The notes under the pieces were generated by a model. That model did not search any database and had not been told where the DNA came from. It was given only the letters and a program-made list of their open reading frames with translations. From a virus: DNA of 31,150 bases. The stretch covers positions 1 through 31,150 of IMG/VR virus record IMGVR_UViG_3300024518_000705; one strand, written 5' to 3'. Positions 24,342 through 31,149 of the stretch are shown here, in pieces; within the stretch, counting starts at the first letter, position 1; every line of letters starts with the position of its first letter. Position numbers and translations under genes: made by a program.

Positions 24342-24900
24342 CAGCGTCGCTGTCACCGTACAAGAAGCCTGCGGTCCCTTCGTCCATCTGCTGAAGCGTC
24401 AACGTCTCGCTGTCCACAGCTTTCCGTTTCTCTTCCAAGGCGTCGAGGATCTGTTCGACCTTCACCCCGACGTTGACGTTGACCTGACCCTCCCCAGGTT
24501 GTTTGCTCCAGCCCGGTTCCTTGAGGTCCATCTCAAGCCGCTGCACGATCTCCCAGTCCTTCGGAGTCGGATGGTAGGTCGGGTCGTTGTCGAGCCGTTC
24601 CTGCAACCGCTTGGCGATCCTGAGCTTCAGACCGACAGCAATCTTGATCGCTTGCTGCTTCTGTTGCAAGAGTTCGTCTTCAGTCGTGCTTTGCAGTCTG
24701 ATGGCATTCTGCTGCCGCCAGTCCTCCCGCGCTTCCTTCCACAAGTCCTTCGCCGCTCGCTTGTTGAGTGCGCTCAGGCTGACGCCATGCTTCACGCTCA
24801 ACTCTTCCCGAGATATCTGGGAAGTGATGTACTCGGTTCTGATGCGGGGCCAGTCCTTCGCGTCTCCTCGCAGCTTCACCCTCGCCTTAGCCTTAGCCAT
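24328..24900 (-). CDS. Terminase small subunit (TerS)
   Basis: The protein has 190 aa from ATG 24900, which overlaps the folE stop by 8 bp; the upstream extension is a folE shadow. The N-terminus is basic (AKAKARVKLRGDAKDW). An HTH follows, with IRTEYITSQISREELSVKHG and then VSLSALNKRAAKDLW as the recognition part, as in many TerS proteins. The middle is coiled coil (DELLQQKQQAIKIAVGLKL) and the acidic C-terminus should contact TerL. It recognises the packaging site. Its direct coupling to the 7-deazaguanine genes is unusual and is discussed under findings. Confidence 0.85.
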   Translation of the reverse strand: MAKAKARVKLRGDAKDWPRIRTEYITSQISREELSVKHGVSLSALNKRAAKDLWKEAREDWRQQNAIRLQSTTEDELLQQKQQAIKIAVGLKLRIAKRLQERLDNDPTYHPTPKDWEIVQRLEMDLKEPGWSKQPGEGQVNVNVGVKVEQILDALEEKRKAVDSETLTLQQMDEGTAGFLYGDSDADATD

Positions 24901-25450
24901 GCACCATACCGATGAGTTCAGCCCGTGCCGCATCCGACTCCCTGAACTGCCCAAGCATCGAGGTTGTGTGCATCACTGCGCTTGACTGCCGCACGCCTCG
25001 ACACTGCATACACAGATGCTGCGCCTGTACGAAGCAGGCTGCACCTCTTGCATCGAGATGATCCATCAACGCCTCTGCAACCTCACGAGTCATGCGTTCC
25101 TGTATCTGGAGGCGACGACTGAAGCACTCAACGAGTCGTGCCAGCTTCGACAACCCTACGACCTCGCCGCTCTTCCCTGGTAGGTAGGCAACATGGGCAA
25201 TGCCGCTGAACGGCAACAGGTGATGCTCGCACGTTGAGTGAAACGCGATGTCACGCAGCATCACAATCTCATCAGACCCTGCTGCGAACCGCTTCGCCAA
25301 CAGAACACCAGGGTCTTGACCGACACCTGATAACAGCTCCACCCATGCGCGTGCCACGCGGTGCGGTGTCTGAGCCATCAACTCAACGTCGTCGCCACGC
25401 CCTGCCATCGTCAGGATCGCCCGTACACCGTCACCCATCGCATCAGCCAT
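24893..25450 (-). CDS. folE: GTP cyclohydrolase I
   Basis: The protein has 185 aa. ATG 25450 has GGAG seven bases upstream and shares a base with the queE stop. It has the family zinc site: C74 and H77 in AFHSTCEHHLLPFSGIAHVAY, and C147 in QHLCMQCRG. The flanking motifs ELMAQTPHRVARAWVELLSG, GLSKLARLVECFSRRLQIQE and TREVAEALMDHL are all intact, and the length fits short FolE enzymes. It converts GTP to dihydroneopterin triphosphate, the substrate of QueD. In a phage with QueD, QueE and QueC, it supplies the first step of preQ0 synthesis rather than folate. Confidence 0.93.
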   Translation of the reverse strand: MADAMGDGVRAILTMAGRGDDVELMAQTPHRVARAWVELLSGVGQDPGVLLAKRFAAGSDEIVMLRDIAFHSTCEHHLLPFSGIAHVAYLPGKSGEVVGLSKLARLVECFSRRLQIQERMTREVAEALMDHLDARGAACFVQAQHLCMQCRGVRQSSAVMHTTSMLGQFRESDAARAELIGMVHG

Positions 25451-26118
25451 CACTCAACTCCAAGTACCTTGTGAGCCTGTAACGAAACTTGCCACGCACC
25501 AACAAGCGATGCCATCATCTCCACGAGCGCGTCTCTGCACTCACGCATCTGGTCACCGTAGTCTGAGGCACCGTCTTCAATCGGCTGCACATATCTACTG
25601 CCATGCCATGCGCCAAGCCATGAGTCGAACGCCAACGGCGTGAGGGCAGGATCTGGGTGGGGCCACAGCACCTTGAACTCATCAACGTCACCGATGGGTA
25701 TCTTGATCTCATCAGGCGGGCGCTTCGGGGAACACGCGACCCACTCAACAGCATCACGAACACCATGGTCCAACTGGACAAGACCGTTGGTCTCAACCCA
25801 CAACGACCAACTGCGAGAGAGTACGCGTGCCAGATCGCCGTCCAACTGCAACAGTGGTTCACCTCCTGAAACAACAACAGCGCGAACCCAACCGTGTGTC
25901 TTCTCGCTGATGGCATCGTGGATCTCGTCAGCCGTCATCAACGCGCCACCTATGAAGTCAGTATCACAGAACGGGCACAGGCTCGACGCCTTGGTGTCAG
26001 GATGACCACTCCACGCGTTGCATCCGGCGAACCGTAGGAACACTACTGGCGCACCAGCGTGCCGCCCCTCTCCCTGGAGAGTAGGGCCGAACACCTCCTT
26101 CACCGCGTACCGCTTCAT
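25450..26118 (-). CDS. queE: 7-carboxy-7-deazaguanine synthase (radical SAM)
   Basis: The protein has 222 aa from ATG 26118, which forms an ATGA overlap with queD. It opens RYAVKEVFGPTLQGEGRHAG, the QueE N-terminus. The radical-SAM cluster is the QueE-specific CX14CX2C: C33 (AGCNAWSG), C48 and C51 (LCPFCDTDF). SGGEPLLQ (84-91) is the SAM-binding GGEP motif, and VETNGLVQL and ACSPKRPP match the later beta strands. It rearranges 6-carboxytetrahydropterin into 7-carboxy-7-deazaguanine (CDG). All key residues are present. Confidence 0.93.
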   Translation of the reverse strand: MKRYAVKEVFGPTLQGEGRHAGAPVVFLRFAGCNAWSGHPDTKASSLCPFCDTDFIGGALMTADEIHDAISEKTHGWVRAVVVSGGEPLLQLDGDLARVLSRSWSLWVETNGLVQLDHGVRDAVEWVACSPKRPPDEIKIPIGDVDEFKVLWPHPDPALTPLAFDSWLGAWHGSRYVQPIEDGASDYGDQMRECRDALVEMMASLVGAWQVSLQAHKVLGVE

Positions 26119-26546
26119 CGACCTGCATCCGCCCAACAGTTCGGCGTCTCCCACACGCGGACGCTAACGACCTTGACGCCTGTGTCCGCAAGCAAGTCGT
26201 TTGACTTGTCGAGTAGCCAACCAGCCATGTTCTCTGCTGTCGGGTTGAACGGCACATAGACGATGCCGAGCTTCGTTGCTGACGCACCAGCACCGACCAG
26301 GATACCCTTGGCAAACCCGTCACCCTCCCACAGCAGCAGCTTGTGGTCCCAGTTGGCATCCAGCCACGTTCCGATCCGACCCTTCAGAACGCTGAAGTCG
26401 ATGACTCGACCAATCGAGTCAAGTGACTCAGCGTTCGCCGTTACCTCGACAACGTACCGATGCCCGTGCAGTTGAGCGCACTTCGACTCGTGACCGTGGA
26501 CACGGTGTCCAGCGTCGAACTCCAGCTTCCTCGTGCATGTGGTCAT
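26115..26546 (-). CDS. queD: 6-carboxy-5,6,7,8-tetrahydropterin synthase
   Basis: The protein has 143 aa. ATG 26546 is chosen because it forms an ATGA overlap with the upstream gene and has AGGAG upstream; the upstream frame is a shadow. Zinc ligands are H14 (FDAGHRVHG), H28 and H30 (QLHGHRYVVEV). The catalytic Cys is C23 (SKCAQLHGH), with D67/H68 (NWDHKLLL) and the C-terminal glutamate in VSVRVWETPNCWA. It converts dihydroneopterin triphosphate to carboxytetrahydropterin, between FolE and QueE. C23 before HGH is the feature that separates QueD-type from eukaryotic PTPS-type enzymes. Confidence 0.93.
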   Translation of the reverse strand: MTTCTRKLEFDAGHRVHGHESKCAQLHGHRYVVEVTANAESLDSIGRVIDFSVLKGRIGTWLDANWDHKLLLWEGDGFAKGILVGAGASATKLGIVYVPFNPTAENMAGWLLDKSNDLLADTGVKVVSVRVWETPNCWADAGR

Positions 26547-27202
26547 CTGTTGATCTCCTTCTGAGCCCACTCCCTCACGATAGGATGACACAGCGGCGCA
26601 TACATGGAAGGTCCGTGTGTCTGGACGTACCACCTCGACTTCTTGCCCGCCATGCGGCGTGACGGCATCAACCGCATGAACTGCGCCCACTGCAACGGGG
26701 TCGGCACAATAGCGAGTTCGATGCCCATGCCTGCACATACGCGAGACAGCAGGGCACGTTGCGCTTTGCGAGGGAGAAACGCCGCAACGATCTTTCTGTA
26801 CCGATGCGTCGAAAAGAATGAGCGCATCCGCCTCTCCAAGACCTCGGCGGTGTGGTCCACATGAGGTTCGATTGGATCAAATACTGTGAAGGGCCACTCG
26901 TTCTCAAAGGCCATCGGGACTACACAACCACCAGCGATCTGTTCCCATATCACCAAGTCTGCGCCTGTTAAGGTGGAGAAAGACGCCCACGTTCGAGAAC
27001 GAGAGAAAGGTTTTGTCTTGGTACACAGGGCCACGAAGCACACGGGATTCTTAATGCTGTGCCCCGCGCACACCCGTAACGATGCCTCTTCCATGATCTG
27101 ACTGCGGAGCATCCTGTTGGACCTTGTGTACCCTTGGAGCGTGGCATCTGGGACTCTCTCGGACTCAGAGAACAATGTCATGGACTCTTCTCTCAGGGTC
27201 AT
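26543..27202 (-). CDS. Unknown protein in preQ0 cluster with archaeosine-synthase-like (DUF5591) cysteine motif
   Basis: The protein has 219 aa and is tied to queC (27199-27202) and queD (26543-26546) by ATGA overlaps, so it belongs to the pathway. Residues 60-72 read C-TKT-KPF-SR-S-RT-W. The archaeal archaeosine synthase ArcS (TgtA2) has the signature P-C-x3-K-P-Y-x2-S-x2-H in its DUF5591 domain. The spacing is identical, with P to L, Y to F and H to W changes. The following GGCVVPMAFENEWPF and VFDPIEPHVDH also recall that domain. ArcS adds lysine to the preQ0 nitrile in tRNA. The protein lacks the TGT and PUA domains of ArcS. Alternatives are a DUF6884-like protein or another preQ0/CDG-processing enzyme. 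Confidence 0.55.
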   Translation of the reverse strand: MTLREESMTLFSESERVPDATLQGYTRSNRMLRSQIMEEASLRVCAGHSIKNPVCFVALCTKTKPFSRSRTWASFSTLTGADLVIWEQIAGGCVVPMAFENEWPFTVFDPIEPHVDHTAEVLERRMRSFFSTHRYRKIVAAFLPRKAQRALLSRVCAGMGIELAIVPTPLQWAQFMRLMPSRRMAGKKSRWYVQTHGPSMYAPLCHPIVREWAQKEINR

Positions 27203-27891
27203 GCAACTGTCGGAAACGCTGGGTCAAGGAACCCAGCCTCCTCGAAGCCCTTGGCACGCAGCAGGCACGCATGGCACGACCCGCACCCAGGACGAACGCC
27301 TGCGTAGCAAGTGTGAGACATGCCGAGCGCCTTCCAACACGCTTTGCCAAGCTCCTCCGCGAGCAGCACCGTCTCCTTCTTCGTTCGGTTGAGCAGCGGC
27401 GTCTCGATCACCGGCTGGACTGGCACGCTCTCGCCAAGAGCTTCGTCCATCGCGCTGCCCATCGACCTGATGAAGTCCTCACGGCAGTCTGGATAGCCGC
27501 CATAGTCCTCCTGCGAGACGCCTGTCACTATCGCGCTGCACCCAAGCACGGCAGCCCTGTTCGCAGCGATCGTGAGGAACAGCGCGTTACGCATCGGGAC
27601 GAACGTCTTCTCCACGCCTCCTGGGAGAGATGCGGCATCGGCATACGTCTCAAGGGCTTCCTCAGACACCAGCGGTGACGTGCCCGCCAACACCCCTTCA
27701 CCGATCGACACCGTCTCGTGAGACGACACCCTCGCGTGGCGTGCGATCGCTTCCGCCGCCTCCACCTCGCACTTGTGACGTTGCCCGTAGTGCATCGTCA
27801 GCGCATGGACCGCGTCGTACCGCTGCAACGCCCAGAACAGGCAGGTCGTCGAATCCTGACCACCAGAGAACAACACTACTGCTGACGCCAT
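27199..27891 (-). CDS. queC: 7-cyano-7-deazaguanine (preQ0) synthase
   Basis: The protein has 230 aa. ATG 27891 has GGAG nine bases upstream; GTG 27906 and ATG 27900 are weaker alternatives. The PP-loop ATP site is SGGQDSTT at residues 9-16. EKTFVPMRNALF and GVSQEDYGGYPDCREDF are QueC signatures. Four cysteines, C195, C203, C206 and C209 (HTCYAGVRPGCGSCHACLLR), form the zinc site. It turns CDG into preQ0 using ATP and ammonia. The start overlaps the dpdA stop by 16 bp. There is no amidotransferase (Gat) domain fused here, unlike the Gat-QueC proteins that make archaeosine. Confidence 0.94.
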   Translation of the reverse strand: MASAVVLFSGGQDSTTCLFWALQRYDAVHALTMHYGQRHKCEVEAAEAIARHARVSSHETVSIGEGVLAGTSPLVSEEALETYADAASLPGGVEKTFVPMRNALFLTIAANRAAVLGCSAIVTGVSQEDYGGYPDCREDFIRSMGSAMDEALGESVPVQPVIETPLLNRTKKETVLLAEELGKACWKALGMSHTCYAGVRPGCGSCHACLLRAKGFEEAGFLDPAFPTVA

Positions 27892-28727
27892 GACGAACAT
27901 CTCCACTCACCAGGTAACTCACTCATCAACTGAACTTGCTTGCGCCAACGCTGACGAAGTTGTCTCTCAGTACGCTGCCACCACTCGATCTCGACCCTGA
28001 CGTTCAACGCACCTCTCGCTGACAGTTGCGTCTGCGACGACTTACCAAGACGACGCCCATACCCACGCCACATGCCGTACTTGGAAGGACCAACCTTCCA
28101 AGTAGTCGCATCGACGGAATGCCAAGGCAACGCCCACAGATCCTTCGGTGAGAAGAACGCAAGCCCGTGGATGCGGCACGGCCACACACTTGCGAAGACT
28201 TGCTTAGCGAGATCGAGTTTACGTTTGCCCTTTAGCCCTGCTGCACCTCCCAAAGAAATCTTCGGATAGTGCTTCGCGTAGTGCGTCAACAACTCTTCCG
28301 ATTCCCCAGCGTGCCACACTGGTATGGCACGCACGCCTGCCTCCCACATCTTCTCTGTGTTGCGTCTTCCCTCTTCAGGATCGCCCAACACGTCCAGTGA
28401 GAACACCTCGACGAGCCTTGGATCTGTTGCCGCGAACTCGTGGCACGCCTCGATGTACTCCTGAAGATCAACAACACCTCCTGAGTTATAGGCTGAGAAC
28501 GCACCAGAGTCCATCGACCACGAGCGGTGGCGATAGTTCGTCGCTCGCTTGCGCCATGCGTCGATGAACGCGAAGGACACAAGCACTGACGACTTGCCTT
28601 GGGGCAACGCATCGTCCGCGTCTTCACCACATTGATCCCTCCACTCACAGTCATCTTCACCAGCGAGGCCAGCGGTCACATCACTGCCAGCCTTGCCTGT
28701 AGGGGTCACTGCGAAGCGGATGTTCAT
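27876..28727 (-). CDS. dpdA: DpdA-like DNA guanine transglycosylase
   Basis: The protein has 283 aa. ATG 28727 forms an ATGA overlap with the parB-like stop; GTG 28742 is the alternative. It has the TGT-type TIM-barrel pattern of phage DpdA: D73 in SWSMDSGAFSAYN (base-binding aspartate region), VFSLDVLGDPEEG, the repeat KISLGGAAG, CRIHGLAFFSPKDLWAL and D206 in WHSVDATTWK, the position of the nucleophilic aspartate. The length matches short phage DpdA proteins. Known DpdA enzymes exchange guanine in DNA for preQ0 or a derivative. The C-terminus is a basic, Trp/Arg-rich helix. DpdA subfamily cannot be set from the sequence alone. Confidence 0.85.
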   Translation of the reverse strand: MNIRFAVTPTGKAGSDVTAGLAGEDDCEWRDQCGEDADDALPQGKSSVLVSFAFIDAWRKRATNYRHRSWSMDSGAFSAYNSGGVVDLQEYIEACHEFAATDPRLVEVFSLDVLGDPEEGRRNTEKMWEAGVRAIPVWHAGESEELLTHYAKHYPKISLGGAAGLKGKRKLDLAKQVFASVWPCRIHGLAFFSPKDLWALPWHSVDATTWKVGPSKYGMWRGYGRRLGKSSQTQLSARGALNVRVEIEWWQRTERQLRQRWRKQVQLMSELPGEWRCSSWRQQ

Positions 28728-29374
28728 GCGTTGCGTCGCCACTCTTCGACAAGAGACAGCACAATCCCTTCGTTACTGTCTCCATGACCACCCGTGGCTT
28801 TCCATTCCTCGAAGAAGCGTGTCATCGTCACCCGTGCATCCCGTGCAAACTTCAAAACAACGAAGTCGTTAGACGCACCGCTGAGTTCAACACCCTCAAA
28901 CCCACCACCACCGAGGTCTTGTGCTGCGTCCCAGTCGGCATCGAACAACGGCTTGAGTTCATGCTCGTCCCACCCCAACAGACCAAGGTCAAACTCCTCC
29001 TCTCTCAATGCAGAGAGGGAACCAGACAACGATTCGAGATCCCAGTCTGCAAGCTCTGCCGTGCGGTTGTCAGCGATTGCAAACGCTGTGGCCGACACGT
29101 TGTCCTCGTCAACGACGACCGCAGCCACCTCTGTCCACCCAAGCTGCCGTGCTGCCTCCAGACGACCGTTCCCAGCACGGACGATCATTCCTTCTCGCTG
29201 AACAACAAGCGGGATGCGTTGCCCGAACTGCGAGAAGCTCGACTTGATCGCCTCGACGTTGCGCTCGTCATGCCGTCGTGCGTTCGCTGGATCGTGGTGC
29301 AACGAGTCCACCGCGACAGCCAACGGCTGCAACGACGGAACGATCCGCACAGCCTGCTTCGTCTTCGCTTTCAT
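28724..29374 (-). CDS. ParB/Srx-domain protein, coupled to dpdA
   Basis: The protein has 216 aa from ATG 29374, with GGGAG upstream. Residues about 15-110 are the ParB N-terminal domain: DSLHHDPANARRHDERNVEA, SFSQFGQRIPLVVQREG and the nucleotide-binding box RAGNGRLEAARQLGW, then AIADNRTAELADWDLESL, as found in phage ParB proteins often fused to DNA methylases. Here no methylase follows. The C-terminal about 60 residues (NDFVVLKFARDARVTMTRFF) are a separate helix-rich domain. It may direct DNA modification. In the bacterial dpd system, DpdB also belongs to the ParB/DndB superfamily and is needed with DpdA. That parallel is inference. Confidence 0.8.
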   Translation of the reverse strand: MKAKTKQAVRIVPSLQPLAVAVDSLHHDPANARRHDERNVEAIKSSFSQFGQRIPLVVQREGMIVRAGNGRLEAARQLGWTEVAAVVVDEDNVSATAFAIADNRTAELADWDLESLSGSLSALREEEFDLGLLGWDEHELKPLFDADWDAAQDLGGGGFEGVELSGASNDFVVLKFARDARVTMTRFFEEWKATGGHGDSNEGIVLSLVEEWRRNA

Positions 29375-30197: not shown

Positions 30198-30676
30198 CAC
30201 TTCTCCTCCTTCAGCTTGTCGTAGGCGGCGAAGAAGTCACACTCGAAGTCCGACGTGTAAACTCGCGCAGCCTCCACCACCTTCTCGGCGGCATCCAACG
30301 TCTTCCGCAGCCGCTCGATCTCGTGTTGCATATCCTCTATTCCCCGTGCCTTGAGCCGCTTGTTCTCAGCCCGCAGCCGCTCCACCTCGGCGCGGAGTTC
30401 CCGAACTCGGTTGACAGAGAGGTTGGCATGGACCCGAGTGAAGCGCTTGCCGTCAACCTCAGGGTCACCCGTGTTGAACGAGCCACACTCGTTGCATTTA
30501 GTGTCGTACTCGTGCATGTCGGGGGTGTGGGTCTCGACGTTTGTGAAGCCTTCAAGTGAGCCGCAATCGAAGCACGCCCACAGCGGGGATTCCTCGCCAA
30601 CTTCCAGACCACCACAAAAGCAGGCACCGGGGATGTCCCAAGCCTGCAACGCGGGGCAATCTTTCTCGTGACCCAT
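30197..30676 (-). CDS. Zinc-ribbon and coiled-coil protein
   Basis: The protein has 159 aa; the ATG at 30676 overlaps the upstream stop, with a GGGGGAG site. The N-terminus has EKDCPALQAWDIPGACFCGG, a cysteine motif common in small actinophage-like and environmental phage proteins. CFDCGS and CNECGSF then form a four-cysteine zinc ribbon (about residues 34-66). Residues about 90-145 are a continuous coiled coil (VRELRAEVERLRAENKRLKA; EIERLRKTLDAAEKVVEAAR). A role in nucleic acid binding or as a dimeric adaptor is plausible but not shown. Confidence 0.68.
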   Translation of the reverse strand: MGHEKDCPALQAWDIPGACFCGGLEVGEESPLWACFDCGSLEGFTNVETHTPDMHEYDTKCNECGSFNTGDPEVDGKRFTRVHANLSVNRVRELRAEVERLRAENKRLKARGIEDMQHEIERLRKTLDAAEKVVEAARVYTSDFECDFFAAYDKLKEEK

Positions 30677-31149
30677 CACTCCCCCTCCTTCAGTGCTTCG
30701 CGGGCAACCCGCTGGAGCGACGTTACGAAACCTGCCTGGGTCGCGGGAATGTCGTCAAGTCTCCCGTCAGCGATGTCCTTGAGCGCCTCCCGCAGCCGCT
30801 CGACCACGGCGTTGCCGGAGACCTTGGCGTTCCCGGAGACCTTGGCGTTCCCGGAGACCCGGGCGTCGCCGCAGACCACGGCGTTGCCGAAGACCTTGGC
30901 GTTGCCGAAGACCACGGCGTTGCCGAAGACCGTGGCGTTGCCGTAGATCTCGGCGGTGCCGCTGACCCTGGCGGTGCCGCTGACCACGGCGTTGTCGAAG
31001 ACCGTGGCGTTGTCGAAGATCATCGCGTCGCCGTAGACCCAGGCGTTGTCGAAGATCATCGCGTCAGGCCCCACATAAGCCGTGTCGGCTACCGTCGCCG
31101 TATCGGCCACCCATCCGCCGCCGTTGGGGTGCTTCTTGTACCCGTCCAT
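30676..31149 (-). CDS. Left-handed beta-helix (hexapeptide-repeat) protein
   Basis: The protein has 157 aa. It starts DGYKKHPNGGGWVADTATVA, a usual opening for phage hexapeptide proteins, then carries about 16 hexapeptide turns (residues about 15-115; TARVSG, TAEIYG, NATVFG, NAVVFG, NAKVFG, DARVSG). These form a left-handed beta helix in known families. A short helical tail follows (VERLREALKDIADGRLDDI). Family members include acyltransferases, but no catalytic histidine loop is visible, so it may be a structural or binding protein. The ATG at 31149 is the last full codon of the window, so an earlier start cannot be excluded. Confidence 0.72.
   Translation of the reverse strand: MDGYKKHPNGGGWVADTATVADTAYVGPDAMIFDNAWVYGDAMIFDNATVFDNAVVSGTARVSGTAEIYGNATVFGNAVVFGNAKVFGNAVVCGDARVSGNAKVSGNAKVSGNAVVERLREALKDIADGRLDDIPATQAGFVTSLQRVAREALKEGE
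30802..31075 (-). repeat. 18-bp tandem repeats inside the beta-helix gene
   Basis: Near-identical 18-bp units encode single hexapeptide turns; on the plus strand they read like GACCTTGGCGTTCCCGGA or GACCACGGCGTTGCCGAA. The central ones differ by only one to three bases, so the array probably grows and shrinks by slippage. It is a coding repeat, not a CRISPR: there are no spacers. Confidence 0.8.

Follow-up and report, generated by a model that had tools for sequence, protein, structure and literature searches.

Which reaction is carried out by a small stand-alone protein whose gene lies between queC and queD in a viral operon that also encodes a DNA guanine transglycosylase? Euryarchaeota make archaeosine in two steps: the archaeosine synthase ArcS attaches lysine to preQ0, after which RaSEA turns this adduct into archaeosine (PMC11298593). 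The viral protein carries a motif resembling that of ArcS. The window analyzed here, that is, the whole stretch of DNA, is a virus record of 31,150 bases.

A stand-alone gene within a preQ0 and dpdA operon

Both ATGA overlaps by which the original prediction had joined the 219-aa protein to queC and queD are exact, and the strand, which had been left out, is minus (Table 1). Its placement inside a preQ0 operon was borne out by profile searches, which identified folE, queD, queE, queC, and dpdA around the gene. The operon runs in the order ParB-like, dpdA, queC, ArcS-like, queD, queE, folE, and is followed by terminase genes; the ParB-like gene is also found in the relatives L055, L059, L060, and L065. 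The window DpdA retains DSGAFSA and HSVDATTW; in an alignment, these fall on the DSG and VDS/CDS motifs of other DpdA proteins. No radical SAM protein other than QueE was detected in the record. Elsewhere on the minus strand, positions 30676-31149 encode a 157-aa protein of hexapeptide-like repeats (xxGNAxV), which is probably a left-handed beta-helix.

Table 1. Features of the viral preQ0/dpdA operon, in order of transcription
Feature	Position	Strand	Details
ParB-like protein, operon head	28724..29374	-	phrog_620 E 2e-35
DpdA1-like DNA guanine transglycosylase, 288 aa	27876..28742	-	phrog_887 E 7e-34
QueC, 7-cyano-7-deazaguanine (preQ0) synthase, without Gat domain	27199..27906	-	PF06508 E 3e-61
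ATGA overlap, queC stop / ArcS-like start	27199..27202	-	
ArcS-core-like protein (DUF5591)	26543..27202	-	219 aa; alternative start M8 at 27181
Codons of motif C60-x3-K64-P65-F66-x2-S69-x2-W72	26987..27025	-	
ATGA overlap, ArcS-like stop (TGA) / queD start (ATG)	26543..26546	-	
QueD (6-carboxytetrahydropterin synthase)	26115..26546	-	PF01242 E 4e-32; start set at ATGA overlap
QueE (7-carboxy-7-deazaguanine synthase)	25450..26154	-	TIGR04508 E 9e-40
FolE (GTP cyclohydrolase I)	24893..25453	-	PF01227 E 2e-62

Kinship with the catalytic core of ArcS

The predicted motif C60-x3-K64-P65-F66-x2-S69-x2-W72 is present in the window protein exactly as claimed. The ArcS motif itself, P-C-x3-K-P-Y-x2-S-x2-H, is not matched, since the viral protein reads L-C-x3-K-P-F-x2-S-x2-W. 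Taken alone, the motif says little: CSDRKPYVRSKTY occurs in an unrelated phage protein resembling 5'-3' exonucleases, and L052, a candidate DUF5591 member with a weak match, was rejected as a chance motif in an exonuclease. The ArcS-like assignment is thus based on the family evidence and not on the bare motif.

The window protein matches DUF5591 (PF17884) with an E value of 1.9e-4 and 21.7 bits, below the gathering cut-off of 26 bits. The family link is nonetheless secure, because it is carried by a homologue in Vibrio phage nt-1, by relatives in IMG/VR, and by the predicted fold. The nt-1 protein VPFG_00169 is 31% identical to the window protein (E 9e-17) and scores 43.7 bits on DUF5591; relatives in viral records score 42.8 to 44.3 bits, likewise above the cut-off, and all nine viral family members match DUF5591 at E<=0.01. 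A profile built from these nine finds PDB 2q07 (AF0587) at 7e-11. Structure comparison, which had been proposed as a check on the ArcS/DUF5591 relation and would have refuted it by showing no such relation, led to the same protein and so bears the relation out: the AlphaFold2 model of the window protein (pLDDT 76.6) aligns with AF0587 at Z 13.6 in VIA-align, the next chain reaching 6.3, and AF0587 ranks first in Foldseek (E 6.4e-5). The model of the relative L055 is better (pLDDT 91.5) and aligns with 2q07 at Z 16.4, the next chain reaching 6.5. The best viral structural match is the nt-1 protein (BFVD E 1e-12). Among the best remaining matches of the models m56d71bfd8d57 and m253c9dcc5420, SMUG1/uracil-DNA glycosylases recur with background-level scores. 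They stand at Foldseek ranks 2-3, but kinship with these enzymes was rejected, as the resemblance does not rise above background (Z 6.2 with L055) and a profile comparison with archaeal uracil-DNA glycosylases gave a probability of 0.05%. DUF6884, another candidate family of the original prediction, gave no match at E<=5 in a Pfam scan of the window protein.

The window protein is therefore a divergent member of DUF5591, homologous to the catalytic core of archaeal ArcS, but it is not an ArcS in the strict sense, from which it departs in motif, length, and partner. On the full-length ArcS equivalog model it scores 12 bits against a cut-off of 440, which corresponds to the core only. With archaeal ArcS (Thermococcus kodakarensis; NCBIfam NF040592) the viral proteins share the DUF5591 core, the Cys-x3-Lys-Pro-aromatic motif, and a presumed action on the preQ0 nitrile; however, they cover approximately positions 283-412 of the 575-position model without the rest of the chain, have Trp for His and Leu for the Pro before Cys, and belong to a DNA pathway without RaSEA. 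AF0587 is the closest solved structure by profile and by fold, yet it is archaeal and has the canonical CTARKPYLTSRTH motif, and its PDB title records no function.

A Trp-type viral subfamily in clusters without RaSEA or QueF

A DNA pattern scan of IMG/VR with LCTxT[KR]P[FY]xxSRxW yielded seven true viral homologues and one chance match (L054), and a profile scan added the viral members L066-L070. Close relatives of the window protein were not found by a single-sequence pattern scan of IMG/VR, and a two-sequence profile scan gave no confirmed match. In the phylogenetic tree, the viral proteins form one clade apart from the archaeal proteins (support 100/90), with the window protein on a long branch; it is the most divergent viral member and is without the FNFRPxxRN stretch of its relatives. 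Descent from an archaeal RaSEA-DUF5591 fusion was abandoned, as the adjacency seen in a first tree did not hold with denser sampling.

Residues L59, C60, T61, and P65 are invariant across nine viral members, which share L-C-T-x-x-[KR]-P-[YF] and a motif ending in Trp, except for a Tyr in L070a; Ser69 is replaced by Gly in L066 and L070b. L053-L060 were chosen by a Trp pattern, so the residue is an unselected observation in nt-1, L066, L070b, and the window protein. Among 44 archaeal DUF5591 proteins chosen without motif selection, the final residue is His in 35 and Trp in none; the others have mostly Glu and also lack the lysine. One archaeal set had been chosen by a His-demanding pattern, and the His/Trp contrast uses the unselected 44 only. 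Searches for Trp-type relatives in bacteria and archaea (one genome per species, 84,980 species) gave 70 pattern matches, none of which was confirmed. The change from His to Trp, which had been called conservative, is not so, yet Trp is common to nearly the whole viral clade.

Eight viral lineages have the gene together with genes for preQ0 synthesis and dpdA: the window; L053/L065; L055/L059/L060; L056/L073; L057/L058; L066-L069; L070; and nt-1/CZ01. In all of them it is near queC and dpdA, usually adjoining queC or queD; the order varies, but the closeness to queC, queD, and dpdA is kept with DpdA1-like and DpdA2-like partners alike. Apart from these, no non-preQ0 gene is shared by all eight. 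The trait is uncommon, since only 2 of 42 QueC-bearing virus records have a DUF5591 gene, both being the already counted L057/L058. On a jumbo-phage contig of 306 kb (L070:5923-11531), two ArcS-like genes that differ from each other lie next to a pair of DpdA2-like genes.

RaSEA (TIGR01210) was detected in none of 16 virus records, including the complete genomes of nt-1, CZ01, and Ssp-JY38; the window record is a fragment of 31 kb. The statement that no RaSEA-type partner is visible in the window stands and extends to these 16 records. In the control searches, three archaea exceed the TIGR01210 cut-off, and of 19 archaeal genomes with DUF5591, 13 give a RaSEA match at E<1e-30. Nor do the virus records contain a convincing QueF, the matches being FolE cross-matches and a single marginal frame of 108 aa. 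By contrast, the cluster of VH1_2019, a relative of nt-1 of the KVP40 type, encodes QueF but contains no DUF5591 gene. The tailoring enzyme of one cluster is swapped between these related vibrio phages (L061:1501-6862 versus L001:5027-10247), with QueF in VH1_2019 and the ArcS-like protein in nt-1 and CZ01.

ArcS as a phage route in addition to Gat-QueC and QueF, as the original prediction presented it, is not new: the kind is already known, because nt-1 ArcS was reported together with DpdA2 in 2019 (PMC6884629). Like the window protein, the nt-1 homologue (VPFG_00169, R9TEI9; PMC6884629) stands alone as a DUF5591 protein within a preQ0/DpdA cluster, with the motif C-x3-[KR]-P-[YF]-x2-S-x2-W, the same predicted fold, and no RaSEA. 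It differs in its partner, which is DpdA2 and not DpdA1-like, in having R and Y where the window protein has K and F, and in the xNFxxxxRN stretch that the window protein is without. What is new here is that the viral proteins form a Trp-type subfamily, that the operon is conserved, and that RaSEA is consistently absent. Compared with the other phage systems, Gat-QueC (phages 9g and JenP1) is likewise a tailoring enzyme for the preQ0 nitrile and belongs to a FolE/QueD/QueC/DpdA operon, but it is an unrelated enzyme with a glutamine amidotransferase domain fused to QueC and its product is dG+. QueF of KVP40-type vibrio phages is the tailoring enzyme of a homologous cluster and is exclusive with the ArcS-like gene (nt-1 versus VH1_2019), but it is a T-fold nitrile reductase that converts free preQ0 to preQ1.

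Diverse other DUF5591 proteins were encountered. The Synechococcus phages Ssp-JY38 and Yong-L2-223 and the IMG/VR record L309 have a fusion in which DUF5591, with the canonical His, follows a HAD-like domain, and this fusion comes directly behind a class-III aminotransferase (L309:3976-5984; L004:4472-6486 in Ssp-JY38). In L309 and Ssp-JY38 the pair lies in or close to a preQ0/DpdA cluster. The gene order in L309 is QueE-QueC-aminotransferase-HAD/DUF5591-QueD-FolE-DpdA, and in Ssp-JY38 an RpiB-like isomerase comes after the fusion. The class-III PLP aminotransferases of the two distant phages L309 and Ssp-JY38 are 39% identical. The Sulfolobus spindle viruses STSV1 and STSV2 encode DUF5591 as a stand-alone protein that keeps the canonical His and is close to the copies of their Sulfolobales hosts (L062:3911-4468 in STSV2; L305:9549-10112). 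DPANN and Thermoproteota archaea (L156, L118, L155, L113, L119, L127) have single chains of 419-491 aa that combine an RaSEA-like radical SAM domain with DUF5591, and many Euryarchaeota (L268, L270-L278) have, besides full-length ArcS, a second, stand-alone DUF5591 protein of 217-235 aa with C-x3-KPY-x2-SPSH. Proteins of 341-344 aa that carry PCTxxKPYxxSxEH and match the ArcS core weakly occur in Alphaproteobacteria and Acidimicrobiia (L095, L102, L132, L164).

Candidate reactions of the viral ArcS-like protein

We found no published biochemistry of any phage ArcS in the literature. T. kodakarensis ArcS attaches lysine to preQ0 in tRNA or in the 5'-nucleotide but leaves the free base unmodified (PMC11298593). 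Action on free preQ0, one of the options in the original prediction, is therefore unlikely by homology, and since ArcS works on preQ0 in nucleic acid, amine addition to dPreQ0 after DpdA is favored. In the reading that we prefer, which we consider evenly balanced between right and wrong, FolE, QueD, QueE, and QueC would produce preQ0, DpdA would exchange guanine for preQ0 in the phage DNA, and the virus-type stand-alone ArcS core would couple an amine, most likely L-lysine, to the nitrile of the DNA-bound preQ0. The Cys60 loop would attack this nitrile, with the invariant Cys as the likely nucleophile, and an N-substituted amidine (dPreQ0-Lys or a similar amine adduct) would be left; because the viruses are without RaSEA, the adduct is probably the end product. 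As the lysine adduct in tRNA cannot be exchanged back by ArcTGT (PMC11298593), by homology the adduct could also lock DpdA exchange. The chemistry or amine specificity may differ from that of ArcS, since Trp stands at the ArcS His position.

The measured bases of nt-1 DNA bear on this reading. Per 10^6 nt, it contains 232 dPreQ0, 72 dADG, and 44 dG+, a sum of 348 (PMC6884629), whereas the plain-dPreQ0 phages CAjan and Rosebush contain 70,628 and 96,530 dPreQ0 (PMC6884629), so that dPreQ0 in nt-1 is ~300 times below that of phages whose product is plain dPreQ0. In the QueF-carrying relative 6E351A, 15% of dG is modified (PMC12028318). Table 2 of the 2019 study covers five bases, and the lysine adduct is not among them (PMC6884629). 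The low nt-1 totals fit an unmeasured main product, although low DpdA2 activity would look alike and counts against the lysine adduct. The same reading has to accommodate the dG+ traces in nt-1 DNA, the position of the window protein as the most divergent member without FNFRPxxRN, and the prospect that archaeosine is completed by a host-supplied partner or by one without relation to TIGR01210.

Those dG+ traces keep direct amidation in play, in which dPreQ0 would be converted to dG+ in DNA via glutamine, asparagine, or ammonia or through an unrecognized RaSEA substitute. The 2019 authors predicted dG+ from such gene content (PMC6884629), and related phages such as JenP1 have Gat-QueC at the equivalent pathway position. 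We nevertheless consider it unlikely: dG+ amounts to only 0.02% of G in nt-1, while up to 27% is cited for the Gat-QueC phage 9g (PMC6884629), and later work showed that ArcS transfers lysine and that the radical SAM step is a separate one (PMC11298593); RaSEA, which would carry it out, is absent here.

The dADG of nt-1 could instead reflect a nitrile hydratase (amidohydrolase) activity like that of bacterial DpdC, an option that the 2019 authors raised for phage ArcS (PMC6884629), and replacement of His by Trp could abolish amine transfer. The same authors note that dADG may arise by natural oxidation of dPreQ0 (PMC6884629), and DpdC has DUF6884 (PMC11888242), which the Pfam scan did not find in the window protein; we regard this activity as improbable. 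The loss of the ArcS His in the viral clade, the long branch of the window protein, and the rank of dPreQ0 as the most abundant measured base in nt-1 would also suit a protein that has lost catalysis and serves DpdA or QueC as a binding partner or scaffold, with plain dPreQ0 in the phage DNA. Such a role seems very improbable, given that Cys60, Thr61, and Pro65 are invariant in nine divergent viral members and that dPreQ0 in nt-1 falls so far below the CAjan and Rosebush levels.

The HAD-DUF5591 phages also speak for amine addition. As an aminotransferase adjoins the DUF5591 domain in them, these phages may make the amine for preQ0 themselves. It is tempting, though somewhat less likely than not to be right, to extend this to a hypermodified DNA base with an amino acid or another amine amidine-bonded to preQ0, DUF5591 acting as a general amine-attaching module whose amine varies by phage and the aminotransferase/HAD-DUF5591 cassettes making their own.

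Should the adduct be the end product, these viruses would have a DNA base with an amino acid attached at the major-groove side of guanine. Such a base would be larger than those that the 2019 study measured and would probably keep restriction enzymes from cutting. This would also account for nt-1 showing almost no known base despite a full pathway. Small stand-alone ArcS cores without a need for tRNA or RaSEA would, moreover, be useful for studying the chemistry of the family.
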